From: Polytrichum commune
Lineage: Eukaryota; Streptophyta; Polytrichopsida; Polytrichales; Polytrichaceae
Direction of reading: 5' to 3'
Length of the DNA: 64,000 bases
Assembly (NCBI GenBank): GCA_950295325.1
Contig: OX485803.1
Span: forward strand, 682,001 to 746,000
Shown: piece after piece, positions 6,641-62,499 of the stretch
Layout: each line of letters begins with the position of its first letter
How positions within the stretch are numbered: the first letter of the stretch is position 1
Translations under genes and position numbers: made by a program
The notes under the pieces: model-generated
The model's input: the letters and a program-made list of their open reading frames with translations, nothing else
Database searches by the model: none
What the model was told of the DNA's origin: nothing

Positions 6641-9264
6641 AGTGTTACACCCAATGTTACATTTGGTGGGAGCGTATCTATTATTACATGGGGTGACGCC
6701 TTTGTTGCTTATATTTATTTTGAACATAGGAGGCACGTGGCCACCTAACCAACTTTTTCATCAAACAGAGAGAAGATTTTACAGTCGAAAATCGAACTAC
6801 CAACCACTCCATTCAATTTTGAGTATTTCTCCACTATCATGTGATAGTTCAAGGGCATTTTGGACCTAATAACATATTTGTTCTCAAGATGATCTGGATG
6901 GACATGTACTAACAAGCTTGTTTATGGATAATCTCTTTGCTAACCACAATGGAAAAGTATGATAGGGCATAAACCCCGAAATCGTATCCAATTTTTATCA
7001 CATTTTTAACCATAAGTCTTCACTCCTCTACCCGTGTCCCAATGAACTAAAGCGATGGCATTAGACTCAGATACCTTAGATCCTCCGATATTGGCCTTCT
7101 CTTTCTTAACTTCCGACATATAAAAGCAGCTTCACATGGACTCGAAAGCTCAATGTATTGTTCACACAATTTTGTTCCAGATAATCTTCAAACTTTACCG
7201 AACAAAGGGTGGACATATTTCAATGAGGATTACAGCTATGTAGATATGGTAGATATGATAGCAGGATCGTTGTTGAAGAAAGCACCAATTAGTTCTAAGT
7301 GTTGAAATATCGTTGACTGTATAAACCTTCAAGGAAAGGAAGCTTTGGATTCGCCTTCAAACTTCCAATTTACTTTGGAAGCGAACATTGTCATCTTCGA
7401 ATTACATGTGTGTCGCAAAGCCATGGCCCCACCATGGACAAAGAACTATGTTAAAAACATGTCCTTAGATCTCAAAGACTAAGTTGGTGTCATTGGTGAT
7501 ATATCAAGGGTCATATCCATTGTAAATAAATTGATATGATTTCAAGTTCTAAGAGATTTCATAAGATGAGTTTACATGGATGTTGTGAAGTTGTAGCCAA
7601 AGTTTGTCCAAATTATGGGGTTTGACTCATATTATGAGAATAGTATGTTGTCATGCAGTAGGGAGACAAATCACATGCAATACATACTCGCTTAGCAATA
7701 TGTTTGGTAACAATGACAATGGTTATTATTTCTACGTTTACAATGTAAGCTTATTAATGTTAAATGGATGAGCATGAGTCATACTTACTGCATTAATTTA
7801 GTTTACAAGTTGAATATTGAGGGACCCAATGAATGTAAGTAATCAAGAGGCATTTTGATGTCAAGGGCAAGACCTTTTTTCCTTGCCCACAATTTTTGTT
7901 CTGAACCTGTTTTTTCAAACGTTTATGGACCCCACATGTGAGTCATGTCAAGTCTTAGCAATCACAACTTATAGAGAACCGACAACTGATCCTCGTTGAA
8001 AATGATATGTATGAAGATGTGTTGGATTCTAAAAATGTCCTAGAGATTGAAGAACCAACTTAGTGGAGATACAAATAAATAGCATTATTTGATTACAACA
8101 ATAATCTTGTGATCTCAATTTTAGCCCCCACATAGTATTAAACAAGGTATGTAGGCTTCATGTGGTCACTCTTCTTAATTGAACTCCTATGTTGAAGTGG
8201 TGTGAGGCAAGTCTTGTAAATGAGAAATAGATCTAAAGGATCTATGATTTACAATGACATTCAACTATATGCTCAAAACATATTAGACATTTGAAGTTCA
8301 ATAGTGGACATAAATGAGAGGGTGCCTACGATCACGTAAAGCGAGAAAGAAGATTTTGATTATAGCTTTTGATAAGTTTTGTATTTGAACTCGAGTTATC
8401 AACTTGAAATGGAAGTCTTTGCAGTTCACAAAAGTTGACAACTAACCATGTGAGTTGTAGTTTTGATTTTGGATAAGACAAAACCTAGAGAAACACTCAA
8501 GGAAGACTTAAAAAGGTGAATCTTTTATCATTTAATAGTGTCTTAGGCAAGCATAATCATGATGAATGTAGGTTGTTTCTGGTTATTTGGGGTTTAGACC
8601 AACAATTCACACAATTATTCAAAATTGAGGGGTTTATCATCTCTCAACAACAATACATGAAATTGTGGTTGTCACACACCTCACGTTATTTACCCAATAA
8701 ATACTATGGCAACGAGTCCATATTGATTGGACCTTGTGAATTGCTCAAGCATACGCACAACCACTCGGGGAGGGGAGGGGGGTCACTCCCTTTTGTTTAG
8801 TGGGAACATGTGAGAACACAAGGTATTTTTAGGAGGTGATATATTGGAGAAGGTAAATTTTGTGGATCCTATTATTATGTAATTTTCTAGCATTCACTAT
8901 TTTTTTGAGGACCCTATAGGTAAACTTGGTATTCTTCTATTTTCACATGGGCATATAGTAGTTATAAATGATAGGTTTAAATTTGCTAATGTCATGTAAA
9001 ATCTAACACTTACATAGACAAGATCAAGATCAAGATCAAGATCATAATTCGCACATCAACAAAGCTTGCACACAATTTAGCTTCCTAGTATGCACTCTAT
9101 TGATTTCAAGACACCCTCACGGAAATGGTGGTAAAATGCTTGTGTTAAAAAAACACATGCAAATGCTCCAAAATTTGTGTTTAAAAACACAATTGCATAA
9201 ATATATGTGGTAAGATTTGCTCCATCATGATGTGTCTCCATTCAAAGCCCAAATCGGAGTTTCT

Positions 9265-9265
<1 letters not shown>

Positions 9266-9296
<31 letters not shown>
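9266..9296. repeat. (AG)n microsatellite
   Basis: An uninterrupted AG dinucleotide run of about 31 bases. Confidence 0.95.
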
Positions 9297-9299
<3 letters not shown>

Positions 9300-9608
9300 T
9301 GGAAGTTTATGTTACTCTCGCATTGGCAACCATCCAACTCTTAAATGATAATGTGTCATAGAGAAGTGGTAGAAAGAATGCATATGAATGATTGCAAATT
9401 CTAAATAAGGCCTTAACAACTCTAAGATCAGTTCTTTGTGATGCTTATGCATGTATATGTTGGTACTTCTCATACTCTCAAGATGTTTCAAGCCACATGG
9501 ATTTCATTATTGGTTATGTTCATGGTTTGTGCAAATTTATTGACCTCTCAACATTTAATTGATAGGTGCCTCCATTCATGCTTGTAGATGTAGTGGCCAC
9601 CATGTCCC

Positions 9609-10561
9609 GCACCTCTCCATGAGGAGTGCCCAAAACACCATGGGCACAAGGGGGACCCTGGAGTGACACCCGGGACTTGTGGTGCCATTGGTGAGTGGGC
9701 CCAAGTCATCCTAGTGTGGGTGAGGGCCCCAGGCGTTGGGAACACCTCCCACCCACGGAGATTAGGAGGCACAAGGGTAAGGCCATAAGCTATGCGTAGC
9801 TTATAGCGTGTAGATTCTAGAATGCTCAAGAACACCTCAATCGGAGGTGTGAGCTAGGAGTTATGGCAATTTGAGTGGAGCGCTGTCTCGGGACAGCGTC
9901 CTAGGACAGCAGTGGCCTGGGAGTGGCTCCCAGGACTGCCAAGGTTTAAACATGCATAACTTCCTCAATACTTGCCCAAATGGGGCAAGTGAAGGAGTCC
10001 ATCGACATCCACGTGAAGCGTACATGAATATGGAGTGGTCGTTTGTTAGCATCAAGAATCACATAAGGAAGTTATGATGGTCTGAAGTTGTTGGGGTTTC
10101 TAGGGCCAGCGGCTAAGAGAAAATGTCTACTTGGTCCCAACTTTTGGTAGAGAGGCAAAAGGTTTCTTGACGGTGCTGTAGGGGCCCCGTCTAGAGTCCT
10201 AGAGGCTTATATGGGTGAGGTGGTATGGCCTCACCCACCCGAGCCCGAACGGCACGGCCTCCATGAGCTTTGGCCCAATGTGAGGGTATAGTTGCCTAGT
10301 ATGCTTCGGGTTGTTGTAGTGTTGCTCCGGCAACGCGATGATCAACATAAGATTGAACTTTCATGGATGGAAGTCCACATCTAAGAGTTGGTTACCGATC
10401 AAGGAATGAGTCCCGAAAGCAAAGTAGGAGGATTGGTTCCCCTCCTATGAGCTATAAGGTCCGGGGTAGGAGGAGCTTACCATTAATATGGCGGAATGCG
10501 AAGGGTTAGCGCTCGTGACGCTTGCTAGAAATGAAAATTGGCAAGATTGTAAAGGGGCTAG
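9609..10561 (+). repeat. Repeat X, copy X1 (interrupted by LTR A)
   Basis: Non-coding repeat of unknown class. It aligns with three separated pieces that together form copy X3 (42,903-42,585 reversed, 40,944-40,813 reversed, and 12,709-13,210) and, in part, with X4 (13,215-13,700, reversed). Landmarks are CCATGGGCACAAGGGGGACC (about 9,637), GAGCTAGGAGTTATGGCAAT (about 9,851), TTGCCCAAATGGGGCAAG (about 9,973) and GTTAGCGCTCGTGACGCTTG (about 10,504). The copy is cut at its right end by LTR A; its few remaining bases lie next to LTR B at 39,313. Confidence 0.75.
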
Positions 10562-11262
10562 TGTGAGCCCAAAAGGGTGCCCACATTTAGTCTTAGACCC
10601 TTGAAACGTTAGTTGATGCACTTTGAAGTAGCATGTTACTTCACAAAAATATAAAAAGAGTGAAATGTTAGTCTTAGAAGTACCATGTTGTAAGAGGCTA
10701 GGATGTGAGTTGTTATTGTGTTTTTACCTTCGGAAGGATTTGAGTGAATGAGGATAGGTAAGGAGAACTTGGATTGAGTAGTTAGTGAGTAGGCTAGTAC
10801 AAATGGATGGAGACAACCAAAGTGACTCAAGAGGCAAGTGCATTCGAATTGGGATGAATGGAGGATCACATGGAGCGCACAAGTGGACCACCTCATCATG
10901 GCCACTTAATGGGGAAGGCCCAAGGAAGAATGCAAGGTGGAGGATAAGCAAATTCTCAAAGCACCAATCAAATCACGAGTTAAGCATCGTGGTTTGAATT
11001 AAGTGGTGAGCGACGATTTGGGAAAGTAAGGGGAGAAAGTTATGGCGGCGGAAAGCGAAGGAGGCTAAGTTTGGGTTGAAGCATCCCAAGTTTGGTAAAG
11101 TGTGGTAGGTAGAAAGCCAAGGCTAGTTAAATGTTCGAATTAGGATCCTTGTTGATCATTTGAGGGAGGAAGGCTTAGAAGATAGGATTGGCGCCTACTA
11201 AGTAGGAGGAAATCTCAAGGGCTTATCGTGAGCCTTGAGGGTGCTCACCCCCTCAAGCTTAC

Positions 11263-11270
11263 TATATAAT
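11263..11270 (+). promoter_or_regulatory. TATA box of LTR A
   Basis: TATATAAT lies at the same relative place as ATTATATA (reverse strand) in LTRs B (40,104-40,111) and D (16,998-17,005). Just upstream is a potential hairpin, CTCAAGG...CCTTGAG (11,214-11,238). The downstream pyrimidine-rich leader fits an RNA polymerase II start. Confidence 0.65.
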
Positions 11271-11779
11271 CCCTCATTCTTCCCTCACTCATCCTCTCTT
11301 TCCTTTGTGCTCCAAGGCACCCCACGAGTTATAAGTGTGGGTGTGGGAAGCCATATTGGAGCACATGTGTGTGCTTAGTTTTTAGTTTGAGAGCCAAGGC
11401 TTGTTAGCCTTGAAGAGGGCTTGACCTCTTGGTAGAATTAGTGTTGACGTGAAGGATTTTAAAGTTAATTCATGATTCCAATTTGTGGTACTTTAAGTTC
11501 ATGTTTTGAATACACGTGGTTGCAAGTTCCATGTTTAAGAGTTGAGCACTTGATGTTGTGATGAGTGCAAAAATATACTTGTGTGGATTAGTTAGTCTTA
11601 GTGAAGTTAGGAAATTCTCTCTCCCCCTCTCCTCTCTAGGATTTTAGGATTTTAGGATTAGAGAAGAATTGTGTGATTAGAAAGGGGTTGTTAGTAGAAT
11701 TAGGGAAATTAGGTAGGAAGATTAGTTAAGGGCTTGAATAATTAGTGAGGTAGTTGGGGATTACAACTACAAAGTTGTG

Positions 11780-12016
11780 GGTTTATGAAGGAGCTGGGTT
11801 TATGAAGGAGCTGGGTTTGTTTAGTTAGAAAGTAAAGAGCTGGGTTTATGAAGGAGCTGGGTTTGTTTAGTTAGAAAGTAAAGAGCTGGGTTTATGAAGG
11901 ACCTGGGTTTGTTTAGTTAGAAGCTAAGAAGCTGGGTTTATGAAGGAGCTGGGTTTATGAAGGAGCTAGGTTTATGTAATTAGAAAGTAAAGAGATGGGT
12001 TCATGAAGGAGCTTAG
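11780..12016 (+). repeat. Minisatellite in LTR A
   Basis: GAGCTGGGTTTATGAAG repeats, alternating with GTTTGTTTAGTTAGAAAGTAAA, about seven times. LTR B retains a shorter version (about 39,450-39,600). Confidence 0.85.
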
Positions 12017-12292
12017 TAGATAGCCTACCTAATTAGCTCATAGACAAGTGGTTAGTTACATTATGCTAGTTAGTGTTATGTGTGGCTTTCACAAATAAAT
12101 GTATTTGAGATTGACTATAGAAGATAGTGTTTTTTTAACACTTGCATCCTCTCTTTAAAAATAAACCACGTGCACAACTTAATGGAGAATGTGGAGCACT
12201 CTCGCGATGGCAAGACAAAGGAAGCAAAGACCAAAGGTGCGAGGGAGAGATTGACATAAGTCACATAAGTATTTCGTAATACTTAAAGGCTT

Positions 12293-12505
12293 ATGTACGG
12301 TATGGAGACACCAAGTGAGACCTCTTATAGTAGCGATACGGAATACACAAGTGATAGTTCAAGTGGTAGTATAGAGTCAACGGCACGGACTCCATTTAGG
12401 AGAGGGATATCCTTAAGGGCTTGTGTAGCTAAAGCAGCCGGATGGACGTTAGAAGCAAACAAAGACAAAATAGCACCCGAGCATAAGGAGGTTAAAATAA
12501 CATAG
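12293..12505 (+). CDS. Small LTR-embedded ORF (70 aa)
   Basis: The ORF encodes a Ser/Thr-rich N-terminal half followed by RGISLRACVAKAAGWTLE (about residues 38-55) and a charged tail. The same core is encoded at the same relative place in LTR C (42,298-42,462) and, with two substitutions, in LTR D (15,819-15,986 minus). In A and D the residues before the core also match (ESTA...TRF/TPF). The location is about 1 kb downstream of the TATA box and 200 bases before the LTR end, so it would lie in the 5' leader of a full-length transcript. I do not recognise the protein. A second short frame starts at 12,183 (MENV...) and matches the N terminus of the LTR C version. It may be a real leader peptide or the remnant of a captured exon. 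Confidence 0.5.
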   Translation: MYGMETPSETSYSSDTEYTSDSSSGSIESTARTPFRRGISLRACVAKAAGWTLEANKDKIAPEHKEVKIT

Positions 12506-12708
12506 TTAACTTGTGCATTCTCCACATACGTATTGAAATCGTACATTGAGTTGTTAAAAGTGAAATTCCAGTTAAATCCAAGACCACTTGAAGGGTGAAC
12601 CTTGTACTATGGACTCATCCAAGTCCAAATCCAATACCGCGGAGGAATGTGAGCCCAAACCCACTACTCGGACTACGGACGCTCAAGGGTGGGGGGTTTG
12701 GCCTCACA

Positions 12709-13210
12709 ATGGGCGCTTGATAGAATCCTAGATCATACAACGAAGTTATGAATGCTTGAAGTTGCTAGGGGTTTCTAGTCCCACTGGCTAAGGGAAAATT
12801 ATCTATTTGGCCCCAACCCTTAGGACAGAGACAAAATGTTACTTGATGATGGGGTAGGGGCCCTGCCCAAAATCCTAGAGGCTTATATGGGTAAGACGGT
12901 GTTGTTGAGCAACCCCACCCCAAATATACTTGGCAACTATACTCCAGGTTGTTATAATGTTGCTCTGGCAATGTGATGATCAACTCAAACTTGGATTTTT
13001 ATGGATGGAAGTCCACATTTAACCATTAGCTATCTACTAAGGGGAGAGTCCCGAATGCATGCATAAGAGGGTTGGTTAGCAAGCTATAAGCTTGGAGGTC
13101 CGCAGTATGGGGAGTTAATCATGTATGTGTGTGGGATGTGCAAGTTAGCGCTCATGACACTTAAAAGAGTTACTAAGCAGTCAAAATAACTTAAGGGGCG
13201 CTAGCAAGAA
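12709..13210 (+). repeat. Repeat X, distal part of copy X3
   Basis: This aligns with 10,030-10,575 of X1 (AAGTTGCTAGGGGTTTCTAG at about 12,751; GGATGGAAGTCCACAT at about 13,002; GTTAGCGCTCATGACACTT at about 13,144). It begins exactly at the end of LTR A with ATGGG. The sequence that should precede it in repeat X is found at 40,813-40,944, reversed, next to LTR B. It runs to an uninterrupted GCTAGCAAGAATTGCAAC (about 13,200), the same site that is split by LTR A in X1. Confidence 0.8.
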
Positions 13211-13214
13211 TTGC

Positions 13215-13700
13215 AACAAGACCTTCATAACTTCGTCATTTGATCTCTGTTTCCATTGAGCGACCAATCCATCATCATTTATTCTTCACACTAATGTCAA
13301 TCAACTTACTACCTCCATGCGGATTAACATTCATGAAGTTATGGATGTTCTAGCCGTGGCAATCTTTCAAGCCATTACTAGGTCACTATTGTCCCATCAT
13401 AAGTCCCTTGGAATGTTGGGCGATGTCCCTATGTAGCCCCCGCCCTCAAATTACCATATCTCCTAGCTCATATCTCCGATTGGGGAGTTATGAAGCATTC
13501 TAGAATCCGGACACCATAATCTACTCAATGCTCATGGCCTTATCTTCGCAAGTCCTACTCTCCATGGGTGGAAGGTGTTTTTCAATGCCCCGGGCCCCCA
13601 TCCACACTAGGATCACTTGGCCCCTCTCACCTATAGTGCCGCAAGTAACGAGCGTCACTCCGGGGTCCCCCTTGTGCCCATGATATTGCAGGCATTCCTT
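13215..13700 (-). repeat. Repeat X, copy X4 (partial)
   Basis: This aligns in reverse with 9,610-10,070 of X1 and with 42,590-42,903. It lies head to head with the end of X3 and abuts the LINE fragment that begins about 13,705. Confidence 0.75.
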
Positions 13701-13704
13701 ATAA

Positions 13705-15410
13705 AAAGATGTGCAACAAGCATAGAGTGTGGTTTTGATACTATTTGGTGAGGTATTAAAATGGTATCCTAGTTGATCTTTCTCTAGCCATGTAAGCAGG
13801 GGTTTTAAGATTATGATGAATAGATATGGGCTTAAGGTGCTTTCTTGGATGGTGCCCTGGCTAATTTGGATGGTCGTTGTTGTTGTGAAGTGTGCACCCA
13901 ATAATGAGGTGGTCGGTTTTGCATAGATATTATAGACTAGTTTGATGGTGTCTAGTGGTTTTCAAGGTCTTCCATTATGGACAATAATCGAGGGTGATCT
14001 ATGGGGCCATATGCGTCCTGAAAGTATATGTAGGTAATGTAAATATCTTTGGCTATAAATTTGGCGTATTCTAAAGCGGCGATGATTGCCTGGATTTGTT
14101 TAGCCATATTTCTCATAGGTTTAAAGCCATCCTAATTGTGGTAAAGGATTGTATGTTTTTTCACTTAATGTAATGAGGAGGGAGGTTAACATGCTTGTAA
14201 AGAGCTCGTAGATGGTGCATATGAGGGCTATGGGTCTGTAGTTTGTGATAATTGTAGGGTTCTTTATTATGGAGGAGTATGGTGTTGCTATGCTTCCATT
14301 CATTGGGTTTTGTTTTTTGGTGATAACATTGTAAGAAAAATTGGTACGTCATGTCCTGAAAGTTATTTGGTAGTGCTTTTAGGCATCACATGGGATACCA
14401 TCCAGTTCGAGGGGTTTGCCTTTGAATAGGTTGTCTTGTCTAGGCATGTAGGTTAGATGATTGTAGTGAATGATGTGGTTAGTAAAGGAAGTTTGGAGGA
14501 AATTATTTTCTCTAGTATGAAACCATCTTTGGACTGCTATGGGTATAGGCGGATAACTCACATACATTCCGGCAAGTGTTTGAACATAGGGAGCTTATCT
14601 TATGAATGACTCTTTTTGTGGGAAGTGAATGACATTTGCGATGGCCTCATGATGTTTGGCTAAGTTTCCATAATTATCTAATATGAGGCAATCGAGTGGT
14701 ATGGAATTTCGATGGTTGAAAATTATTTTATGAATTATTTTTGGTTTTTTACCGAGTTAGAGATTCATAATTTGTTATTGATCTCTTACAATTTTGGGAG
14801 GTTTCTGCAGTGGTTATACTTTATGCTGCGGCCTTGGCACCCTTGGTTGTGTTTGCAATGTTGTTTAGTTAATTTTGTTTGGCATGTGAGTCATTGATGG
14901 TAGGTGGTGGAATTGTGTTGGGATGGTTCTTTACTTCTTGACTTTTAGGCTTGAGGTACTAATTCTATGGAACTGGGAAACTAGTAGACATGATGGCATT
15001 TTTTATTAGGTGATAGGAGTTGAGACATTTTTTCATTGTTTTTGGAGTTTGCGAGAGGTTATGTTTTTTGCATATGTCTCTTTGTCTTGATTGATGTGGT
15101 CCCTTGTGTTGATTGTGTTGAATTCTCATCCATCTTGTCGTGTTTTGTATGGCTATGGCTTCATCAATTGATATTGTAACTGGAACAAGCATTTATGGGT
15201 TTTGCACGTCACTGTGGTGGCCATTAGTTGTTGTTCGCATACTCCATGTGTTTGTATATTTATGCAGCTACAAAATATATAGACTATCTTGTGTAGGGCA
15301 TGTGGGAACTTTGTAATTGTGACTTTTAGACATGTATTGATAGCCTTGAAGCATGACATTAAGGCCTCTAAGTATTCCATAATTTTGAAACCCTTAAATT
15401 GTGTCAATAA
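13705..15410 (-). pseudogene. Decayed LINE reverse transcriptase fragment
   Basis: Reading the minus strand, successive reverse-transcriptase blocks appear in different frames. There is an NYRPIALICTIYELFTSMLTSLL block (14,250-14,180), FQDAYGPIDHPRLLSIMEDL with the first catalytic Asp (about 14,015-13,955), and QGTIQESTLSPYLF (about 13,855-13,815) followed by LTWLEKDQLGYHF. Homology ends at TLYA, just before the catalytic Asp pair, where repeat X4 begins. Upstream frames to about 15,400 are A-rich and may be ORF2 linker or ORF1. Stops and frameshifts are frequent. It is a relative of the large LINE and retains the QG...LSP block that the large LINE has lost. Confidence 0.7.
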
Positions 15411-15818
15411 ACATAAATTTTATATTCTTGTATTTTTAATTATTTGTATGACATAAACATGCAATTCATTGTTGTTGTTAATATATTACTATGTTTCTTT
15501 TGTACTAGACATGATTATGATTTCAAACCATAAACCCTGATCCTTTAGAGAATGTTTTTTCTCCTTGTTTTCTACATGTACTTCTTGTGAGGCTTGTCAT
15601 CAATAATACACTTTAAGGACTTTGGGAATTGGGATATTATTTACATAAAAGCAATATAAGGTAGCATTAACTATATGTCACCAAAAAGCCTCCACCCTTC
15701 AATTTCGTCCTAGCCCGAATGGAGAAGTTTATAATGACATGTAGAGATTTCTCTCTTTGTAACACAATGTATGATTCCAATCTATCGTTGGAATATATAC
15801 AACTTAACCAAGTCTATA

Positions 15819-15986
15819 CTATGTTTTCTTACACTCCTTAATCTCGGGTAATGTCACATCCTTGTACTTCTCTAAAGTCCACCCGGCCGCTTTGGCCACG
15901 CATGCCTTCAAAGATATCCTTCTTGTGAAGCGAGTCATTGCCGTCGACTCCACACTACTACATGAGTTCTCGTTTATTGATTCCAT
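15819..15986 (-). CDS. Small LTR-embedded ORF (55 aa) in LTR D
   Basis: From ATG at 15,986 the frame reads through RRISLKACVAKAAGWTLE to a stop at 15,819. It matches the LTR A and LTR C ORFs in the core and shares ESTA before it with the LTR A ORF. The function is unknown. The open frame and the conserved core, in copies whose surrounding LTR sequence has diverged strongly, suggest past selection, but chance retention is not excluded. Confidence 0.5.
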   Translation of the reverse strand: MESINENSCSSVESTAMTRFTRRISLKACVAKAAGWTLEKYKDVTLPEIKECKKT

Positions 15987-16129
15987 GAATTACACAAGTT
16001 TAAGTATTGATAAATATTTGTCACTTATTGTAGTTTTCTCCTCACGCTTGAACCACTATATTGGTTTAATGAACTAATGGTTATCCCTAATGGAACCAAG
16101 CAAACTTCCTTTGTTCCCCTAGACTTTAC

Positions 16130-16800
16130 TAGCTAATAGTATAACTTTCCCATTACTTCTCGGAATGTCCTGAAATTTTATCTGTAACTAGGGAGACAAA
16201 GCAAAAAACATCTCACCAATTTGTGAGCCTATCCCATTTTCTGTCCGACAGTTATGACCATTTTAGTGTGTCAGTCTACCCAGATTTCAGAATGTCATAA
16301 CTTCCTCTCACAGGCTCCAAAGAACTTCAAATTTTGGGAGCAATCACAAAAACTAATTGTTTATGACCCCCTGAAACTTCAAACTATTTTCATTTTCTGC
16401 CAAAACGTTATGGCCTTTTTAGTCTGCAATTCTTGAAAACACTTCAGAATGATATATCTCCTTCTCATCTATTTGGAATGACTTGAAATTTGTACCACAA
16501 CTAGGAAACCTAAGAACAAAGCATCCCTAAAAATTTCATACGTTTCCAAGCCTCTATCTAGAAGTTATGCCCATTTCAGCTCGAAAATGTAGGCGAAGTT
16601 CAGAATGTCATAACTGCTGCTCTAGTACTCCAAACATCCTCAGATTTTGACCATGTTCATATAAACAAGTTTTTTACTAACCCTCTAGTTTTCACCGAAG
16701 TATCTTCTTCTGCTCGGAAGTTATGTCCCTTACAACCTAGACTACTCAAGAAATACCCAAGAAATATGAACTCAAGTACTACAACTTGAAGCCATAAAAT
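16130..16800 (-). repeat. Diverged ~165-bp repeats in LTR D
   Basis: CAGAATGTCATAACT or a variant recurs near 16,289, 16,444 and 16,610, each followed by a GCTCCAAA/ACTTCAAATTTT-like stretch and a GTTATG...CATTT stretch. A fourth, weaker unit starts near 16,150. Confidence 0.6.
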
Positions 16801-17354
16801 ATCATAAAATTATTCACACCAAAACTAATTCTAACAAGAGGTCAAGCCCTCTTCAAGGCCAACTAGCCTTGGCTTTCCAACTAAAAATTAAGCACACACA
16901 TGTGCTCCAATCTGGCTTCCAACACACCCACACTTATAACACGTGGGGTGCCTTGGAGCACGAAGGGAAGAGAGGATGAGTGAGGGAAGAATGAAGGATT
17001 ATATAGTGAGTTTGAGGGGGTGAGCACCCTCAAGGCTCACGATAAGCCCTCGAGATCTCCTCCTACTTTGTAGGCTCTAATCCTATCTCCTAAGCCTTCC
17101 TCCCTCAAATGATCAACAAGGATCCTAATTCAAACATTTAACTAACATTGGCTTTCTACCTACCACACTTTACCAAGGTTTGTCCTTCTCCTACTTAAAT
17201 CCACTCCACAAAAGCCTAATGCTTCAAACTAAGCTTTCTTCAAGCTTCATTCTTTTTATATTTTTGTGAATAATCATAAATCACCAAAACACCACTTGTA
17301 ATGTTTTACAAGTGTTAACAACCAATGTGGGCATCAATTTGGCCTCACACTATA

Positions 17355-19806
17355 TCATTCAAAGATTTATAATTACCCATAAGGTGCCAATAGAAACAAC
17401 AATTTACCATTATTTTGAAATTTTGCATGCCATATAATCCATTATAATAGGTAACAATTCCCCTTCCCCCCCCCTCCAAAAAAAAACACAATGTTATTGT
17501 ATGTATATACATATTCTAAGAGGAAGTAACGTCCACGAGCCATGAGTAGATCATACTAGACCTCATTGTAGGCTCTTGATCAATCACAAAATGTCAAGAA
17601 TAGTTCATTTTTAAAGAGTCATCTTGACCAACAAGGTGACCTTGATAACTACATCCACATATTACAATAGTATCATGACGGTTTCAACGATAACTGTATT
17701 ATTTGGAGATTTGTAGAAATTTTTGAAAAACATTGTCGATAAAAAAACAACAAATTTGAAAAGGAAAAGTGAGAACCTAGTAGAATATTCCACTTGTCGA
17801 AGTGGAACCATAAGAATAAGTAAACTATTCAACAACGACCTTGGGATTAAAATAATTTGGAAATATTAGGGTTGTTTGGAGGTCCCTTCTCATCTAATCA
17901 CTGCCTTTAAGAACTTCAATAGCATCTTCAGTCCATCTGACCCCGATCGTTGTTGCAGAAGAACTGTGAGTGCATGTCAAAAACCTCAAACATGACTCCT
18001 TGTGGTAGTCCCCCTCCTCATATCTAGGTTTGGCAATGGCACCCTTGTAGTGTCACCAACACTAAATGTAAACCTAACATTAACTGTCATTTCTTGTAAA
18101 AAATTTGGGCATCATATATGTATAATGTTGCAAATACTATTGCTTACTATGTAAATTTTCATCCAAATTTGAGTCATCCAAATTTCAATCATCCATGACA
18201 ATATTTCATTACAAAAATGTAAGGATGCAAGAGATACCAAACAAAAAGTGGATGAACTAGAAATAAGTTGAGATGACAATACTTGTAAACTCATTTATAA
18301 TAAGTGTGATTAGAAAAGTTACCACAGAGACATAAAATACCATATGACACTAAATACAATGTTTACAGTAGTTCTGGAGGTTGTCAAACCTAGTAACAAG
18401 GGGGCCTGGTTTATCATTAACTTTGATTAACAATGTACAAAGAAATAACTAAAAATGTTGACATGGGTAAAAGTGTCATCAAGTTCAAGACATTGCAAGC
18501 CAATATATGCCATGTCTTTGTTGCCAACTCTTGTGTGCTTCCATAACTTAAACGTCACATCTATTCAACACATTTGTAATATTCATATTGCAAGCCTGCT
18601 ATTATTAATTTATGGCGTGTATCCACAAGAGTTGTCACATAGCAAGCACGACCTCTATCCTTCAACCTTCAAACTTGTTGGATTGTCATAAGATGTTATG
18701 AACATAAGATTGCTCCGGTCAAATAGAAAGAACCCCAACTTTGATATGAGACAAGTAGTAAGGATGTGATATAGATAGTTAATTTTACGGTTTGCACGAG
18801 AAATGTATAATATGAGGTTGCACGAGGTGAACTATTTATGTGCTTAGACTTTTCCGGCTTAGTGTATACATCCTAACCTCCTTGATGTCAACCTCCATAA
18901 TGTCACTCCCTCATATCTTGAAACCCTAGGGATTGGACATGCTCAATAGGAAATGTCCCTCTTTGTTGTCACATTTTCTTTCCATACATCACATGTTTTG
19001 ATATTAAAATTATCCACCAAAGAATTCAAACCACATGCATCATCATTGTCAATATTATAATGTTGACTTTCTGTCATTCCTAATTGTCACATGCTACAAT
19101 GATCCTCTGTTAACACTACATGCCTCCTTCATATCCCGTGCACTTTGCTTGCCACAACCATGATATTAGGGAGGTTTGAGTGTGGTAGCATTTGAGGCTG
19201 AGGTGCTTCTAGATTCTAGAATCATGTGGGATGTGTACAATTCACCACTTGTGAGTAAAGTTTGTACAAAAGTGTCACCACATCGTTACGTCGTCGACTA
19301 ACATGCCAAATGATGACCAAATGGATACATTGTCAAACCCCTAGCAAGCCTCATCGGGTTAAAGTTATGTAGGGGATCGGTACCATGGGAGTGTGTACTT
19401 TTCATCCCCAATGTACTTTTACAATTCATATGACGATGTGTTTGTTTTTCTTTTTTCTCAATGTACATGTTAGGCTTTGTGGAAATGATTAGTGGTAGAT
19501 AAATGTGTCCCTAATGTGTTCTTACTTTCTTTTCTATGATTCTTCCAAGTGTTAAATAAGATATTTCGATTCAAACTTTCATTTAAGTTTTGAAGTCTAC
19601 TTTCATTCAATTTGGATAGGTTAGTTTTATGAAGTGGAAGATTTGCAAGCAATTTTAAAGATAGAATTCTACATTTTGCTTTTGCATCATAGAAGGGGAT
19701 GTTACATCTTTGTTGTTGTTTGGTCCCTGGTCTCAAGTGATGTGCATGGGATTTGCATCTGTCTTGTCTTACAAACTGCGCTGTCTCTCTCCAGGTGCAA
19801 GAAAGC
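17355..19806. other. Region upstream of the receptor kinase
   Basis: It contains the second copy of the dispersed 0.32-kb repeat (18,047-18,370). No other gene is recognisable, and a short minus-strand frame over 19,470-19,883 is antisense to exon 1. The promoter of the kinase should lie in the last few hundred bases, but no convincing TATA box could be singled out. Confidence 0.4.
18047..18370 (+). repeat. Dispersed repeat, about 0.32 kb, copy 2
   Basis: Partner of 6,325-6,640 in the same orientation. This copy has an extra 15-20 bases that duplicate CATCCAAATTT near 18,160-18,190. Confidence 0.7.
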
Positions 19807-34870
<15,064 letters not shown>

Positions 34871-35721
34871 GTCAATGGCTTCATGATGCCAATGTACAGA
34901 AATTCCACCTGGACGTTGGAATTTTTTGATGTGTGGAAATTTGCGTCATTCGGTTTAGGGGTTAGGGAAAATAACTCAACAACTCCATAAACTTAGGTTG
35001 TGCATGTAACTTGGACTCGAGGTTTAGGGTTTGGGCATTCCAAGAGACAATGTCTAATGTACAATACTAGCTTGAACCCGTATCATCCTAGCCTGTTGTA
35101 GTGCATCTGTGCATATAAATTATGATGTTTTAATGTGGTCCTATCATGGTCCAAGCCAACCCCCGTGGATGCCACCTTGTTGTTTCCATCCACTATTCTA
35201 GTATGAAGATGCATCATCCCAATATGTTACACCCATGCATATGAATAAATGTCTCACACCATTCATCCATTTTTAATGGTTGGCTTGTTTTGAAAGGCTC
35301 AACGCCGATGGCCTCATCACCCATGCCCCTCAAGCTTTTCAAGTTTCATGTAGTCACAATAGCTTGGGCTTGGCTTATTACAATTTTTCATATGACTAAT
35401 GAACCAGTGAGGTTTGAAGATCATTATGTTTTGCAGGTGTTTCCATACATTTATGAAGTGACATTTGTTTCACTTTTACAACAACTCTTTTGCTTTGACT
35501 CCATATGTGAAACCCATAAGTCCGTGATACATAGAATGGAGTACGATCACCCTACATTCAGGTCATATTAAGCGTCAAGTACTCATTTATGGCCCATTAA
35601 CCTCAATATTTATGGCACGTGTCAGCATGGGTTTGCCAAGATTTTCTCCAAATTGAATATAGGTAGAGAAGTGGTCAGTCAGACCTAAACAAATGGGAAT
35701 TGATAAATAATAACATATTTG
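34871..35721. other. 3' flank of the receptor kinase
   Basis: Expected 3' untranslated region. AATAAA occurs at about 35,244, but a polyadenylation site cannot be fixed. No other gene is seen; a 93-codon frame at 35,290-35,571 has no recognisable features. Confidence 0.4.
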
Positions 35722-37080
35722 AGTGAGAAGTAGGCAATTCATCAAGCAGTAGCAAAAAACAATTATAAATGCATAATTAATGAAGAATTAGAAAATTAAT
35801 ATACTCAAAATGAATAATCAAAATTTATATCAGAAACCTAACCAACTCCTATCATAGCCCCCACCTCTATATGAAGCCCATCCCCTAGAATGAATTCGTC
35901 TTAACAAAGAAACATTTAGCCTATAGAATATCTCTTTGGAAGGAAAGAAAGACAGATCCGATGTTGCCATTGGTGTGAATTGTGGTGTTGCTTCGTTTTT
36001 AGGTGAGTTAAATCTATATGTAATCTCAAAACGGGTAATAGGATAATGAGAGGGCCCCAACAATTATTGCGTCTTTCGAAAGGTGAACACCTTAAACGGG
36101 AGCGGACAAGCTGGTTGGCACCTAGCTCCCCCAGGGACAAACCCCTCGGTTCCCACATGGTTGGTTGAAAATATTTGGTTCACGCAGCTACCCCCGAGTG
36201 CTATGATTGCGTAGATCATAGGTGGTAGGGTGCACCAGAAATCAAGTGCTACGAAGGTTGCCCATCCAACTCAATACTGTTCCGGCCTTAAGCGGCTTAG
36301 TCTTGAAGTTCCCATGGGATCGAGGTTAAGGCCTTGGGTTTAAGCCGCCATACATCTCTTTGTATTTTCCATGCTTGCAATGGATGGGTCTACGTAGACA
36401 TCACAAAGCACTAGGCACAGTGCATTAGCTACATGATGTGCAAATAGTTTCTAACTTTTGTATATTAACATAAGAGACCATAAAACAAACACTAATGTCA
36501 AGAGTGGTCCAAGTCTTCTAATATGTAGCATGTCCCTCCATTTTGTATTGCAACATTGGTCCCACATTGAGGAAAATAGTCCATTATAAGCTTACGAAAA
36601 TGGACCTTATGTGACTTTAAAAAAAAATTAATCATACATTTATATGTAAGTGGTATATGGCAAGGATTGTAGTCACGAACAAACAATCGAAAGAAATATG
36701 TGGTGTTACCAAATTGTATATAGATATAGATTAGATATATTGAACATGTTATCTTCAATATATTTTCTCCCCATGCTAGGATGCCAGTAAGTTATGCATG
36801 TTTTGTGAGTATTTAGGGTAGAGGGTGCTTAAACCAAAACTTTAAGCACTTGCACATAATATGGCTATGTGCTTGATTAAAATTTTTGTATATTAGCCTT
36901 TGGGCTCAACATAGGTATAAAGAACAAAAAAAAGTCTCAAAAAAATATTTGATGAATATTTAAAGTCAAAACCATTAGATGCTTTAAAATAACCCCAGGC
37001 CCCGTGTATGACAACCTTGCATATGGTGAGGACCCCCACCTTCATTGCCTAGAAGCAACACAACATAGGTGGATATTAGA
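35722..37080 (-). mobile_element. 5S-derived dispersed repeat R, copy 1
   Basis: This aligns in reverse with 62,500-64,000 over about 1.35 kb, from GAGTGAGAAGTAGGCAATTC (35,722) to CTTCATTGCCTAGAAGCAAC (about 37,041). It contains a 5S-rRNA-like segment (36,228-36,345). An 80-codon frame ending in CGTNxAIQNGGTCYILEDLD is shared by both copies (here 36,498-36,758), but has no recognisable domain. It may be a 5S-promoter element related to Cassandra TRIMs or to 5S-derived SINEs. No duplicated LTRs were found inside it. Confidence 0.75.
36228..36345 (-). other. 5S rRNA-like promoter segment in R copy 1
   Basis: On the minus strand GATCCCATGGGAACTTCAAG is followed by CTAAGCCGCTTAAGGC, then AACAGTATTGAG and GGATGGGCAACC (36,267-36,256). 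The order and spacing match the middle of plant 5S rRNA and its internal control region (box A, intermediate element, box C). The 5' third has diverged, so it is a derived copy and not a functional 5S gene. Confidence 0.65.
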
Positions 37081-39313
37081 ACCAAGCTAGATCAAAGCCC
37101 AACTAGTAACGGTGCACAAAGCAACATGGCCACCTCCATGATCCCACTTGGTTCAGTTGCAAAAGCGTATGTGAACCATCCGAACAGTTCACGAGTCATG
37201 GTAAAAACAATTAGTACTGTATTTTGTGATTTTTTGAATATCAACCTACCACCACCACCTTCTCCATTGTACATGGATGATCCAATATTTGCACACATGA
37301 TGAAGTGGAATGCAATGTGGTTTAAGTGCATTCCACAACTACACCTTGAAGCTTTTCATAATCAAGTCCGCAAATATCATACTTAACTATGTGTAAATAT
37401 GCATGGTTACTATATTATACTTAATCAAGTAAATTGTACACACTTGGAGCAAAGGCTAAATAAGATACCTGTGAAAAAAAATCTTTGTTTTTATTGTGCC
37501 CCGCGAAAAGCTATGCTCTGTGGACGATGTCAAGAATACGTGATTGCTTGATGTCATTTTGATCCACACGGTGGTCTTCCTTCATAGCTATGTCAACATA
37601 TTACCATGGCTCATGCTCAAGGGTCGACATTGGTTTAACAAAAGAGGAAGATCCCAAGGGCCCAGGGATGTGAAGTTTGTCATGTCCGCTCAGGTTTACA
37701 ACCAAGGTTGCAACATTCCTCACATGTGAGTACGGTACCTGCATGGCCAATTGGGCACTTAAGTGCCGAATAATTATTTTAATTATTGCAAGGTCATTAT
37801 GCAGTTACAACAATATTTTAATCATTATTCGACACCCATGAACAGTATTAACGGAAAATTCGGCATTATAACTGTAGTTTGTTATTTTTGTTACATTCAT
37901 CCCTCCTCTTAACGCTTTAAGCTCAAAAATACTGTGATTTTTGTAGACAATATGTTTTCATGAAATAATTCATAGTCTGAGGATGGGGTTGTATGTATGA
38001 ACAATTTCAATGCGAAAATTTAGTATAGAGGTTTATATGTGTAGAATAGTGTGATTTCATCTATTTTGGCAATTCATCCATGAATTTCATCAACTTTGGG
38101 CAGTGAGGCTTGTATTTATCACATATTTCGGCACCTCACAAAATGACTTATTTTTTGCTGAACTGGTCATGCAGGTGCGGTAATATTTTGTTATTCAAAA
38201 GCATTGGGAACAAATGACAACATAAAACACTAAAACCTTGTAACAATGAAACATGGGAGTGCAATCATGTGAGCAATGAGCAATGAGTGGTAATTTTTGA
38301 GTGGGGAAGGAGGGAAAATATTTGTAATTACACCCAATAGTATCTTATACTTGTGGTATTTTGCCACAAATTGTAAAAATTATGTTTATACTAATATGAA
38401 TGGAAATGAATTTAAATATTTTTGTTAGTTAAACATTCAATCCTTCAAAAATTTCAAGCACATTCTAAATGTTGAGTGTCATTTAGACTATTTTTTTAGA
38501 ACTCACATAGGTTTGAGAAATGAATTGATGGCGACATAGTGGAAGTAGCAAATTCAAATTCAGGGCATATATGGAAGTGTAAGAGAAATTGCTCACTTGA
38601 ATCAATGACCATTGATTGTGGTAAATTTCAAAGGAAGCCCAAGATCCAAACATTGCTACACAATTTGAAGTTATTATCATTTTGATTTAAGAGGAATTAT
38701 CACAACAAAGTTTTTTTAACACATGGGGGAGATGGGTATAAGGCAAAAATGTCAAATACACACACAACACAATGGCCATTTTGTGATTAATGAAAATGCA
38801 AAATCAAAGTCATACCACACATACTTGCACAAACACGTCCGTAACAATAAATTGGTCATAATTAGCCTAATCGTGAAGATTAATGCACTTATCCGCCTCG
38901 TCATATATGAATGGGTGATAAACAATTTGTTGATACCTACGGTGTGAGACTAACGTTGTTAATAGTGCATCTGGAGGCTAAACCTTAAAGCTAGGAGGAA
39001 GTATCACATCAAATTCTCTACATAATGGGATTGTAAATGTTAGACTTCAAGTGGGCACTTCTTAAGCTACGGATGTCAAACAATCAAGAAGATTTGGAGA
39101 AATGGTTGTATTTAGGTGCTCAATTGATTTTTTCCTTGCCACCTTCTTAACATGCTTTTTGTTTGATTTCACTAAGACTACATAAGCCATAGTTCCATAG
39201 TTCCATTTGAACTAGGAATTAGTATTACATCATGCAATGATGATAGGATGACATCAAACAATGAAGAATCTTCCTTGTATGCGACTAGATGGTGTGTCGC
39301 AACCCTTGCTAGC
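37081..39313. other. AT-rich region without a recognisable gene
   Basis: Only short frames are present, none with motifs. The last bases before 39,314 (GTCGCAACCCTTGCTAGC, reversed) continue repeat X1 as it is seen uninterrupted at about 13,200. Confidence 0.45.
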
Positions 39314-40812
39314 TGTGAGGCCAAACCCCCCACCCTTAAGCGTCCGTAGTCCGAGTAGTGGGTTTGGGCTCACATTCCTCCGCGGTATTGGATTTGGACT
39401 TGGATGAGTCCATAGTGCAAGGTTCACCCTTCAAGTGGTCTTGGATTTAACTAGCTCCTTCATAAACTCAGGTCCTTCATAAACCCAGCTCTTTACTTTC
39501 TAACTAAACAAACCCAGCTCCTTCATAAACCCAGCTCTTTACTTTCTGACTAAACAAACCCAGCTCCTTCATAAACCCAGCTCCTTCATGAACCCACAAC
39601 TTTGTAGTTGTAATCCCCAACTACCTCACTAATTATTCAAGCCCTTAACTAATCTTCCTACCTAATTTCCCTAATTCTACTAACAACCCCTTTCTAATCA
39701 CACAATTCTTCTCTAATCCTAAAATCCTAAAATCCTAGAGAGGAGAGGGGGAGAGAGAATTTCCTAACTTCACTAAGACTAACTAATCCACACAAGTATA
39801 TTTTTGCACTCATCACAACATCAAGTGCTCAACTCTTAAACATGGAACTTGCAACCACGTGTATTCAAAACATGAACTTAAAGTACCACAAATTGGAATC
39901 ATGAATTAACTTTAAAATCCTTCACGTCAACACTAATTCTACCAAGAGGTCAAGCCCTCTTCAAGGCTAACAAGCCTTGGCTCTCAAACTAAAAACTAAG
40001 CACACACATGTGCTCCAATATGGCTTCCCACACCCACACTTATAACTCGTGGGGTGCCTTGGAGCACAAAGGAAAGAGAGGATGAGTGAGGGAAGAATGA
40101 GGGATTATATAGTAAGCTTGAGGGGGTGAGCACCCTCAAGGCTCACGATAAGCCCTTGAGATTTCCTCCTACTTAGTAGGCGCCAATCCTATCTTCTAAG
40201 CCTTCCTCCCTCAAATGATCAACAAGGATCCTAATTCGAACATTTAACTAGCCTTGGCTTTCTACCTACCACACTTTACCAAACTTGGGATGCTTCAACC
40301 CAAACTTAGCCTCCTTCGCTTTCCGCCGCCATAACTTTCTCCCCTTACTTTCCCAAATCGTCGCTCACCACTTAATTCAAACCACGATGCTTAACTCGTG
40401 ATTTGATTGGTGCTTTGAGAATTTGCTTATCCTCCACCTTGCATTCTTCCTTGGGCCTTCCCCATTAAGTGGCCATGATGAGGTGGTCCACTTGTGCGCT
40501 CCATGTGATCCTCCATTCATCCCAATTCGAATGCACTTGCCTCTTGAGTCACTTTGGTTGTCTCCATCCATTTGTACTAGCCTACTCACTAACTACTCAA
40601 TCCAAGTTCTCCTTACCTATCCTCATTCACTCAAATCCTTCCGAAGGTAAAAACACAATAACAACTCACATCCTAGCCTCTTACAACATGGTACTTCTAA
40701 GACTAACATTTCACTCTTTTTATATTTTTGTGAAGTAACATGCTACTTCAAAGTGCATCAACTAACGTTTCAAGGGTCTAAGACTAAATGTGGGCACCCT
40801 TTTGGGCTCACA
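39314..40812 (-). mobile_element. Solo LTR B (inverted partner of LTR A)
   Basis: On the minus strand it runs from TGTGAGCCCAAAAGGG at 40,812 to TTTGGCCTCACA at 39,314. It is nearly identical to LTR A: for example the 70-, 75- and 89-codon frames in 10,636-10,997 and 40,377-40,738 translate identically. It lacks about 550 bases present in A (12,020-12,575), including the small conserved ORF. On the plus strand its flanks are CTAGC (left) and CCCAT (right); they do not match each other but are the exact partners of the flanks of LTR A. Confidence 0.85.
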
Positions 40813-40944
40813 CCCATTCCATCGACATCTAATCTTGGCTTACTAAATGTCGATAGACTCCTCATTTTTCCCATTTGGGCAAATACTACGGAAGTTATGA
40901 TTGTTCTAACCTTGGCAATCTCGGGCCCCACTCTCATGTCACTG
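40813..40944 (-). repeat. Repeat X, middle part of copy X3
   Basis: Between LTRs B and C. Reversed, it matches X1 at about 9,899-10,030 (GATTGCCAAGGTT, CATAACTTCC, TTGCCCAAATGGG). Confidence 0.75.
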
Positions 40945-41649
40945 TGTGAGCCCAAAATGGTGCCCACATGTGGTGATTAACTCTTCGGAACCAAATTTAG
41001 TTTGACTTTGAGGTGTTATGATTATTTACAAAACATAAAAAGAGTGAAGTGTGGTGTGGATTTAAGTTTAGGCATTAAGTGGTGTTGTGTGATTATTTCA
41101 AGGTTGATTTCAATAAGAGGATGCCTTGATTGTGTGAGTAGGGGGTAAGGTGAGGCAAGGTGAGCTCCGCGGGTTAAATGCCCACTTTTGGATCCACTTT
41201 GTTAGTTTAGGAAGAAGGAAGCTTGGTGGATGGGGATTAGTCCCTACTTTGGAGGAGAGGGTTAAAGGATTGTGATTGGGGGATGCTAATCCTCTCACCC
41301 TATCCTCACCTCTCTCTCCCTCTCTCCCTCTCTCCCTCTTTGCTACTTAAGGTGTTTTTCTCTCATTTTCCTCTCTCTCCATCAAGCGCTCTCAAGGGAG
41401 CAAGTCCTTAAGAGCTTGAGCCACGTGTGTAGGTTATTAGTTTTAGTGAAGTTAATTAGTTAAGCTCTATCTCTCACTCTCACACTTGGGGTAAGCTATT
41501 AGGATTACACATAATGTTAGGGATTAGGTAGTTAAACATTTAGAATTAGGAGGTTGGGATTGGTTGGTTAGTTGAAAGATTATCTTGAGTTTAGTGGAAG
41601 TCTTAATTAGTGGTGTGGGGTGGCTAGTTTAATAGTTAGAGAAGCAGTT

Positions 41650-42020
41650 GGGAGCTGGTTTACCCAGATTGGGCTACATTCGGCAGCAGAGCTGCAAGCA
41701 GCTGGGAGTTGGTTTACCCCAGACTGGGCTACATTCGGCAGCAGCTGGGAGCTGGTTTACCCCAGACTGGGCTACATTCGGCAGCAGAGCTGCAAGCAAC
41801 TGGGAGTTGGTTTACCCCAGACTGGGCTACATTCGGCAGCAGAGCTGCAAGCAGCTGGGAGCTGGTTTACCCCAACTGGGCTACATTCGGCAGCAGAGCT
41901 GCAAGCAGTTGGGAGCTGGTTTACCCAGACTGGGCTACATTCGGCAGCAGAGCTGCAAGCAGCTGGGAGTTGGTTACCTAGACTGGTTACTTTCGGCAGC
42001 AGAGCTGCAAGCAGCCGGGA
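41650..42020 (+). repeat. 55-bp minisatellite in LTR C
   Basis: Seven copies of a GGGAGCTGGTTTACCCCAGA-type unit (starts near 41,650, 41,704, 41,746, 41,800, 41,855, 41,909 and 41,963; the third is short). The unit lacks stops in all three forward frames and its length is not a multiple of three, which creates three overlapping frames of 90-142 codons with the same repeating peptide. These are not treated as genes. Confidence 0.9.
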
Positions 42021-42297
42021 GGGCTTGGTTATTAACACATACACATGAAGCTACAGTGGGTAGCTAATTAGTGGAAGTAAGCAAGGTGGCATTACTCATT
42101 AACTAATGGGTGCCAGTTGTAAGTAAGATAGCCTAGTAGGTAGACAACTTAATTAGCTCATAGATAAGTAGCTAGTCACATTAGGCTTGCTTGGCATGTG
42201 TGGCCTTCACTAGCAAAGTGTACTTACTATTGGTTATAGAGAATAGCGTTTTGCAACGCTTGCATCCTCTATATTAAATAAATCAAGTGCACAAGTG

Positions 42298-42462
42298 ATG
42301 GAGAATGTTAACAACTCTAGCGATGGCCAGACAAAGGAAGTCAAGACTAAGGGTGCAAGGGGAATTTCCTTGAGGGCATGTGTGGCCAAAGCCGCGGGTT
42401 GGACTCTTGAGAAATCAAACTCTACCATAAGCCAAGAGGCTAACATTAATAAAGCACGGTGA
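42298..42462 (+). CDS. Small LTR-embedded ORF (54 aa) in LTR C
   Basis: It starts MENVNNSSDG and contains RGISLRACVAKAAGWTLE at about residues 22-39, then a short tail and stop. The core is identical in sequence to that of LTR A even though the two LTRs are well diverged. In LTR A the MENV start and the core are separated by about 110 extra bases; here they are fused in one frame. The function is unknown; its position in the LTR leader suggests a retrotransposon leader peptide or a captured host exon. Confidence 0.5.
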   Translation: MENVNNSSDGQTKEVKTKGARGISLRACVAKAAGWTLEKSNSTISQEANINKAR

Positions 42463-42584
42463 ATTAAGATGACATGAATGCCTTGGGATGTGAAGGGAGC
42501 ATTTTCAATACACAAACAATACATGTGATTCTCAAAATCATCACCCGGACTAGGACGCTTAAGGGTGGTGGGTTTGGCCTCACA

Positions 42585-42903
42585 CACTGCTATCCCACCA
42601 TAATGCCGAGCATTGTCCCTAGATAGCCCCCCTTCAAATTGCCATATCTCCTAGCTCATATTTCCAATTGGGGAGTTTTTGAGCATTTTAGAATCCGGAC
42701 GGCATAAGCTATTGAATGCTCATAGCATTCTCCTCGTGACTCCTACTCTCCGTGGGTGGAAGGCGTTCTCAGCGCCCAAGGCCCCCACCCACACTAGGAT
42801 CACTTGGATCCTTTCACCTATGATGCCCCAAGTCTTGTGTGTCACTTCGGGATCCCCCCCTGTGCCCATGGCGTTGCAGGTATTAGTCATAGAGAGGTGC
42901 ATA
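42585..42903 (-). repeat. Repeat X, proximal part of copy X3
   Basis: Reversed, it matches X1 9,609-9,900 and X4 (GAGCTAGGAGATATGGCAAT reversed at about 42,645; CCATGGGCAC reversed at about 42,866). Confidence 0.75.
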
Positions 42904-43337
42904 AGACGAACATTTTTTACTTCCTCTTTATTATGTTCAAAATTAATTAAGTTTAAAGTATTTGACTTCTTTGGTGATAACTGTTATTTTTAAGCAGAAT
43001 ACTAACTCATAAAATTGGTCAGATGTATGGACTTCTTCTAGTGCCTCCAAGTAATGATCTTCTAATTCCTATCATTGTTCAATTGCTTCACTTTCATCTG
43101 TATGTCATAATCATATGTACGTCACATTTATTCGTACATCACCTTCATCTATATATTTCATTCATCCCAAACCTATTATATCATCCCTTATGGAATCATT
43201 TTTCATCCAACCTAAAACATTATGGCTTCCTCTAAAATTCATACATCACTACCGCGATGGGGGGTTTGTTCAAGATATCTAACTTGCACTAAATTTCACA
43301 TTGGCCACCCTTGTTTGGATTGGCCAAGTAATGAGAG

Positions 43338-43400
43338 GGTTGGAGGTCAAGCCACCTTCCGAAGAATAGTATTCGGATAGGTGACCGTTTGCCACCCTCC
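43338..43400 (+). other. Possible 5S rRNA-derived segment
   Basis: GGAGGTCAAGC, then GAAGAATAGTATTC, then GGATAGGTGACC (43,375-43,386) follow the order and approximate spacing of the 5S internal control region. The flanks are unlike repeat R, so this would be an independent 5S-derived element. The match is short. Confidence 0.4.
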
Positions 43401-44065
43401 AAGCCAACACTCTAATCAAAACAAAGCTAGAGCTTTAGCTCTAGTTTTAGTCTCTTATTTAATCTCATATTTAATATCCAACTTTATATCTAATTTTATC
43501 TTCAACTACCTATCTCTACCTCATGCCTTTAAGCCGTAATTGCTGCAAAATCAGAGAAGAGTTTAAGGTTAGAAAACTAATGTGACCAAAAGATTATGTA
43601 AACAAAGACTTATATAACCAACAACGATATAACCTAGAACTGCAACTAGTTGTAGCCTTCACTTTAGTGACAACACGTCCGCATGCAGTTCACTCCAACA
43701 TGAATCCATACAACAATAGCCTAACATGGCTTAGAAATTCTTTTATTCAACATTGATATGGTTTATAACCCATTTTGTTTAGCATTCATATTATTATTTT
43801 TCTAAGAATTTAACGCATCTATCTACATGGAAAGGGGGGAAAGAGAGAGCATCCTAACCGCAAGAAAAATGAGAGTGAACCCGTGCACTAATCTTCGCGG
43901 AACTACCCCCTTCCAACCACAAAGCCTTACCGGCCATAGATCTAGCCACGCCTACATCTAACAGTTAGCCTCTACGGCTGACTTCACCTAGCTATCCTTC
44001 TCTAAACTCCTAAATCCAACGGTCTACATCCGCCACCCTTTTGATCCAACAACCTTCATTTGCCT

Positions 44066-44185
44066 TGACGTCATCCGCTTGATGATTTATTCCTTCGACG
44101 TTGTCCTCCGCTCATACCTTCATCCATGCAACGCTTCATCCACTCGACGTCATCCTCCGCTTATGCCTTCATCCGCTTAATGCCG
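44066..44185 (+). repeat. Short tandem repeat
   Basis: About three imperfect copies of a CGACGTCATCCTCCGCTTAT-type unit continued by GCCTTCATCC. Confidence 0.6.
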
Positions 44186-62390: not shown

Positions 62391-62499
62391 TCCGACTTCT
62401 TGGACTTTAAATCAAATTCATTTCAATTCCATTCACTCTCTTTTCCAATCCTTGTAGAACCTTTCCAAACACTATAGCACTATGGTTTTTGTTCAACTT

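Follow-up and report, generated by a model that had tools for sequence, protein, structure and literature searches.

A 26.6-kb block of the window (the whole 64,000-nucleotide stretch analysed, C1:682001-746000) has very probably been flipped through an ectopic crossover involving two very young LTRs in opposed orientation, as judged from the sequence. The genome comprises 407.8 Mb in 64 contigs, and the window sits in a cluster on contig C1 made up of duplicated units. The block spans positions 12709 to 39313 (26,605 bp) and is reversed (minus) relative to the sister units. Its left boundary is a solo LTR in plus orientation, LTR A (10562 to 12708, 2147 bp), and its right boundary a solo LTR in minus orientation, LTR B (39314 to 40812, 1499 bp), both with TG...CA ends.

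Read in LTR orientation, LTR A is flanked by GCTAG and ATGGG and LTR B by ATGGG and GCTAG, an exact exchange. On the plus strand of the window, the outer half of the site 1 target duplication (GCTAG, 10557 to 10561) precedes LTR A, which now adjoins the inner half of the site 2 duplication (ATGGG, 12709 to 12713). At the other end, the inner half of the site 1 duplication (CTAGC, that is, GCTAG in LTR orientation, 39309 to 39313) adjoins LTR B and the outer half of the site 2 duplication (CCCAT, ATGGG in LTR orientation) occupies 40813 to 40817. In the present order neither LTR has a target duplication of its own; both regain one when the block is re-inverted. The swapped flanks, the orientations, the block limits (12,709-39,313) and the missing duplications given in the preliminary description are thus borne out by the LTR ends and flanks. 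So is its claim that re-inversion gives both LTRs their duplications, the targets being single-copy in the sister units.

Sixty LTR stretches were fetched, 21 of them solo LTRs by their flanks. A perfect 5-bp duplication surrounds 18 of the 21 (16 of 19 in the main table, plus L025 and L055), and the remaining three score 4, 3 and 3 of 5; L072, which lacks a duplication, had been fetched as a suspected case and is left out of this count. Both solo LTRs (2/2) in the neighbouring units have their own duplication. Genome-wide, GCTAG precedes five LTR starts and ATGGG seven, against at least 931 starts, so that the chance of a double flank match is about 4e-5 from the genome counts and about 1e-6 for random bases. 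LTR ends with a flank fitting RYKRG, a 16-member class, were also screened (79 starts, 58 ends). Among 30 same-strand pairs within 22 kb, 27 have equal flanks, a proportion that the screen itself favours because both flanks must fall in the class; the three unequal pairs comprise A, B and a further pair with a single-base difference. At distances of up to 60 kb there are three opposite-strand pairs, two of which are the A/B swap. The third, with equal flanks at 54.74/54.78 Mb on contig C2, was rejected as a second inversion since its second LTR is of a different and older LTR group.

Between LTR A and LTR B, identity is 99.8% over 1350 bp and 98.6% over the last 139 bp; they owe their difference in length to a tandem array inside the LTR and to the sequence that follows it, and each has same-length relatives at 99% elsewhere in the genome. 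Their family is large and very young. Its 29-base start has 931 exact occurrences genome-wide and, when LTRs are paired by element spacing, six of eight pairs are identical and the other two differ at one and two bases. The high identity between A and B therefore says little, near-identity being ordinary for such a family. Full elements are marked by TAATT after the 5' LTR and AATTA before the 3' LTR. Both marks are missing from the flanks of LTR A and LTR B, which are solo LTRs on this account. Private bases, not present in the other copies sampled, number five in LTR A and two in LTR B. Elsewhere in the genome (L059, C2:13513806-13517452), two LTRs of the family, one of them slightly cut, lie tail to tail in a palindrome of about 3.6 kb with CCTCG on both sides of the whole, which looks like a single insertion of a palindromic LTR dimer.

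Restored-junction queries of 500 bases each were made by turning block 12709-39313 back and removing each LTR together with one duplication. For restored site 1, the full 500 bases align contiguously with C1:523028-523528 at 97%, free of any LTR. Of its 40 matches, 37 are copies of repeat X reaching 10 to 19 bases beyond the junction and two are self matches. Restored site 2 is uninterrupted in 38 of 42 matches, the other four being two self matches, one LTR match and one weak inverted match; its best matches, all LTR-free, are at C1:824200 (99%) and at C1:871444 and C1:587654 (95%), with another 35 at 77-81%. As a control, the present junction at A with the LTR removed was searched, and none of 48 matches crosses it; for the junction now at B, the comparison covered the window. 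The empty sites can be read directly: GCTAG is present in single copy at C1:523 kb, as is CCCAT (plus strand) at C1:824 kb. In the 588- and 871-kb copies, site 2 has GCCAT in its place. The match to uninterrupted X sequence and the colinearity of X1 and X3 that the preliminary description expected from re-inversion are indeed recovered, as seen in the unbroken matches at site 2 and the X copies passing site 1. It had also presented its three checks as independent. They do agree, but they are not fully independent because the flank swap and the site 1 X match rest on the same few bases.

For the orientation of the block interior, 11 sister stretches were fetched and hits of at least 90% were tallied. 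Of the surroundings of the kinase copies at 405, 666, 749 and 851 kb, the analysis covered the stretch at 867-875 kb. Among the 26,605 block bases, 16,694 have hits solely in reverse, 1,974 solely in forward orientation, 3 in both and 7,934 in neither. All forward-only runs fall within 15813-17350 and 29247-29798, which are insertions without counterpart in the sister units examined; outside these two insertions not one block base matches forward only. The flanks behave in the opposite way. On the left, all 1,721 bases match forward (219 of them also in reverse, via another X copy), and on the right 3,795 of 5,588 bases do so.

Individual sister units join the flanks to the block ends in the re-inverted order. 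The left outer flank (8841 to 10561, plus), which holds repeat X1, is joined to the block's right end in one unit: C1:521572-523277 corresponds to 8841-10561 forward at 95.4% and is directly continued by C1:523273-523592, which corresponds to 39313-38995 in reverse at 96.9%. Beyond 38995 this stretch descends, with further insertions, to window position 26116. The right outer flank (40813 to 45043, plus), which holds the outer part of X3 and LTR C, is joined to the block's left end in three units. C1:583001-588035 runs from 19266 down to 12708 and then from 40814 onward forward (join between C1:584944-588035 and 588031 on); C1:867447-871825 runs from 18641 down to 12708 and then forward into the right flank (join between C1:868730-871825 and 871821 on); and C1:823722-824455 runs from 13441 down to 12708, followed at 824450-827000 by 40813 onward. 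Coverage by the 11 stretches excludes block bases 19267-25841, and none of them spans both junctions. In the 824-kb unit, a cut LTR of the LTR D type (L063, C1:821231-824455) links an X copy to the sequence corresponding to window position 13441 downward; this unit seems to have undergone a further rearrangement, since the flanks of the cut LTR differ.

The two forward-matching insertions are specific to the window. One is LTR D (about 15676 to 17345, minus, flanks CTATA/CTATA), whose target is present once in both sister units examined. The other is a short element with inverted ends (29247 to 29797, unstranded), which we take to be hAT-like; it is missing in both sister units that cover the place, and its 8-bp flank repeat looks like a target duplication. 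LTR C (40944 to 42584, plus), a related older solo LTR within X3, has flanks CACTG/CACTG, is missing in three sister units and has no part in the inversion event. A 1.4-kb inverted repeat at 87% identity pairs the end of the window (62488-63827) with a segment of the block (35768-37096), and related sequence is present at unit borders in sister units. At the opposite end of the window, a long open frame at 2-1348, which matches the PCIF1 WW domain and has an RNase H match below the curated cut-off, is probably a retroelement.

The block contains an LRR receptor-kinase gene (approximately 25367 to 33277, plus, from exon-sized ORFs), and its placement inside the flipped block, already put forward in the preliminary description, is confirmed by Pfam matches: LRR_4 at 25367-25516 (plus), and PK_Tyr_Ser-Thr and Pkinase, with kinase motifs, at 31020-31241, 32188-32451 and 33026-33277 (plus), the last just below the Pfam cut-off. 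An ORF at 28582-28836 carries a P-loop motif without a Pfam match. Nine near copies of a 1.5-kb kinase piece, at 87-100%, are present on C1. The window's copy, at 713900, is the only one on the plus strand; the other eight, at 404998, 545583, 568402, 601955, 666370, 748671, 851412 and 2581659, are all on the minus strand. Eight copies, including that of the window, form a cluster of about 450 kb (C1:404998-852921), and the ninth lies at 2.58 Mb. Five ORFs of the window were set against two sister copies; they were picked as open in the window, and their openness there is no result since it was the selection criterion. The nearest sister, at C1:601 kb, carries a stop in a kinase ORF among the five, and the C1:545 kb copy aligns only partly to that same ORF. 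The LRR ORF finds no match in either of these two sister stretches. Since the breakpoints fall in repeats and the gene sits well within the block, the inversion is not expected to have damaged or affected it.

Altogether, the inverted order is the derived state, since the restored junctions, the reverse-matching block, its forward-matching flanks and the sole plus-strand kinase all set the window against its sisters. The inversion through crossover of inverted LTRs that had been proposed at the outset is supported by the LTR-free restored junctions, the reversed block interior and the minus orientation of the kinase in eight of eight other copies. We infer that a crossover inside the LTRs made the flip, and that the flip arose in the plant rather than in the assembly. 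The course of events was probably as follows. Two copies of a very young LTR-retrotransposon family would have inserted into one unit of the kinase cluster, at a distance of about 27 kb and opposed to each other, each insertion making a 5-bp duplication (GCTAG and ATGGG). Both elements would have been reduced to solo LTRs, before or after the flip. A chromatid folding back on itself would have allowed a homologous ectopic crossover between the opposed LTRs, for which near-identical family LTRs make long homology available, and this would have flipped the 26.6 kb, so that the inner halves of the target duplications changed places.

Chimeric LTRs would be an additional sign of such a crossover and were sought by comparing the alleles of 54 other LTR copies with LTR A and LTR B. 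The two show no difference in their first 1222 bases, and hence the crossover point cannot be placed. Identity over these 1222 bases also occurs in 6 of 1423 other pairs, from a sample biased toward the nearest relatives of A or B; L001, L046, L054 and L057, from this same biased sample, carry the A/B sequence over the stretch. LTR B joins a long-type array to a short-type tail, and this array-to-tail junction is unique in the genome. The array of LTR A is common (36 exact genome matches), and LTR A is not the reciprocal of LTR B.

The flip could instead be an assembly error, a wrong-way join through the near-identical, opposed LTRs, with the plant carrying the unflipped order. A false join inside the LTRs would leave identical swapped flanks and a reversed block. 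The abundance and near-identity of the family, and the duplicated units surrounding the locus, also speak for it. We consider such a false join unlikely: the repeats measure just 1.5 and 2.1 kb, 406.1 of the 407.8 Mb are carried by seven large, chromosome-sized contigs, which suggests that the reads were longer than that, and LTR A and LTR B are unequal in length, each with private bases. The window moreover has no N, and thus the block is no flipped scaffold piece.

A process without any later LTR crossover would also yield swapped 5-bp duplications, by reasoning, if two copies integrated simultaneously, one at each site, and a crosswise joining of their ends flipped the block between them. 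This is very improbable, as it requires a rare joint event and then the loss of the interior from both elements; an ordinary crossover is simpler because ordinary insertion and solo formation are common in the genome. Finally, there might have been no inversion, with two unrelated solo LTRs whose own duplications mutated away and whose flanks agree by chance. Imperfect duplications do occur in three of the 21 solo LTRs sampled, but the double match has a chance of about 4e-5 or less and sister units independently pair the same flanks. The restored junctions, the kinase strands, the block orientation and the control in which 0 of 48 matches cross the present junction contradict it as well, making coincidence a practically negligible explanation.

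An inversion by crossover between the two LTRs has a close parallel in inversion 2z3 of Drosophila buzzatii, caused by Galileo, a DNA transposon with 7-bp duplications. As described in PMC2775673, both breakpoints of 2z3 carry opposed copies of one element with exchanged target duplications, the targets are single-copy in the non-inverted arrangement, and both copies are chimeric. With 2z3 the window thus shares the opposed copies, the exchange of duplications and the single-copy state of the targets in the uninverted order (PMC2775673). They differ in that the window has solo LTRs, 5-bp duplications and a block of 26.6 kb, and in that chimeric copies are a feature of 2z3 whereas the window's LTRs are identical over their first 1222 bases; the uninverted reference consists here of sister units of the same genome, and not of non-inverted chromosomes of the species (PMC2775673). 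In plants, inversions from ectopic recombination between transposable elements have been shown, according to the portions consulted of a review (PMC7093584), and the window inversion falls in the same proposed class of mechanism. The parts of that review compared hold no LTR case with exchanged duplications. A search of the open-access literature in one wording, which is no proof of absence, found no solo-LTR inversion with swapped target duplications.

The window inversion thus belongs to a known class, inversions via ectopic recombination between opposed elements. It is conceivable, if improbable, that the opposed LTR pair still flips and the species has both orientations, with the flipped unit protected against unequal exchange with the minus-strand units next to it and one kinase copy helped to stay intact as its sisters decay. 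To our knowledge, recombination between elements is often inferred as the cause of inversions and seldom documented at the base level. In the present case a single genome suffices to read the duplications, the empty sites and the ancestral order, because nearby sister units serve as an outgroup. The locus is a young case, dated by its context, in which retrotransposon remnants reorient single genes in a receptor-kinase cluster, and it offers a template for genome scans for exchanged target duplications.
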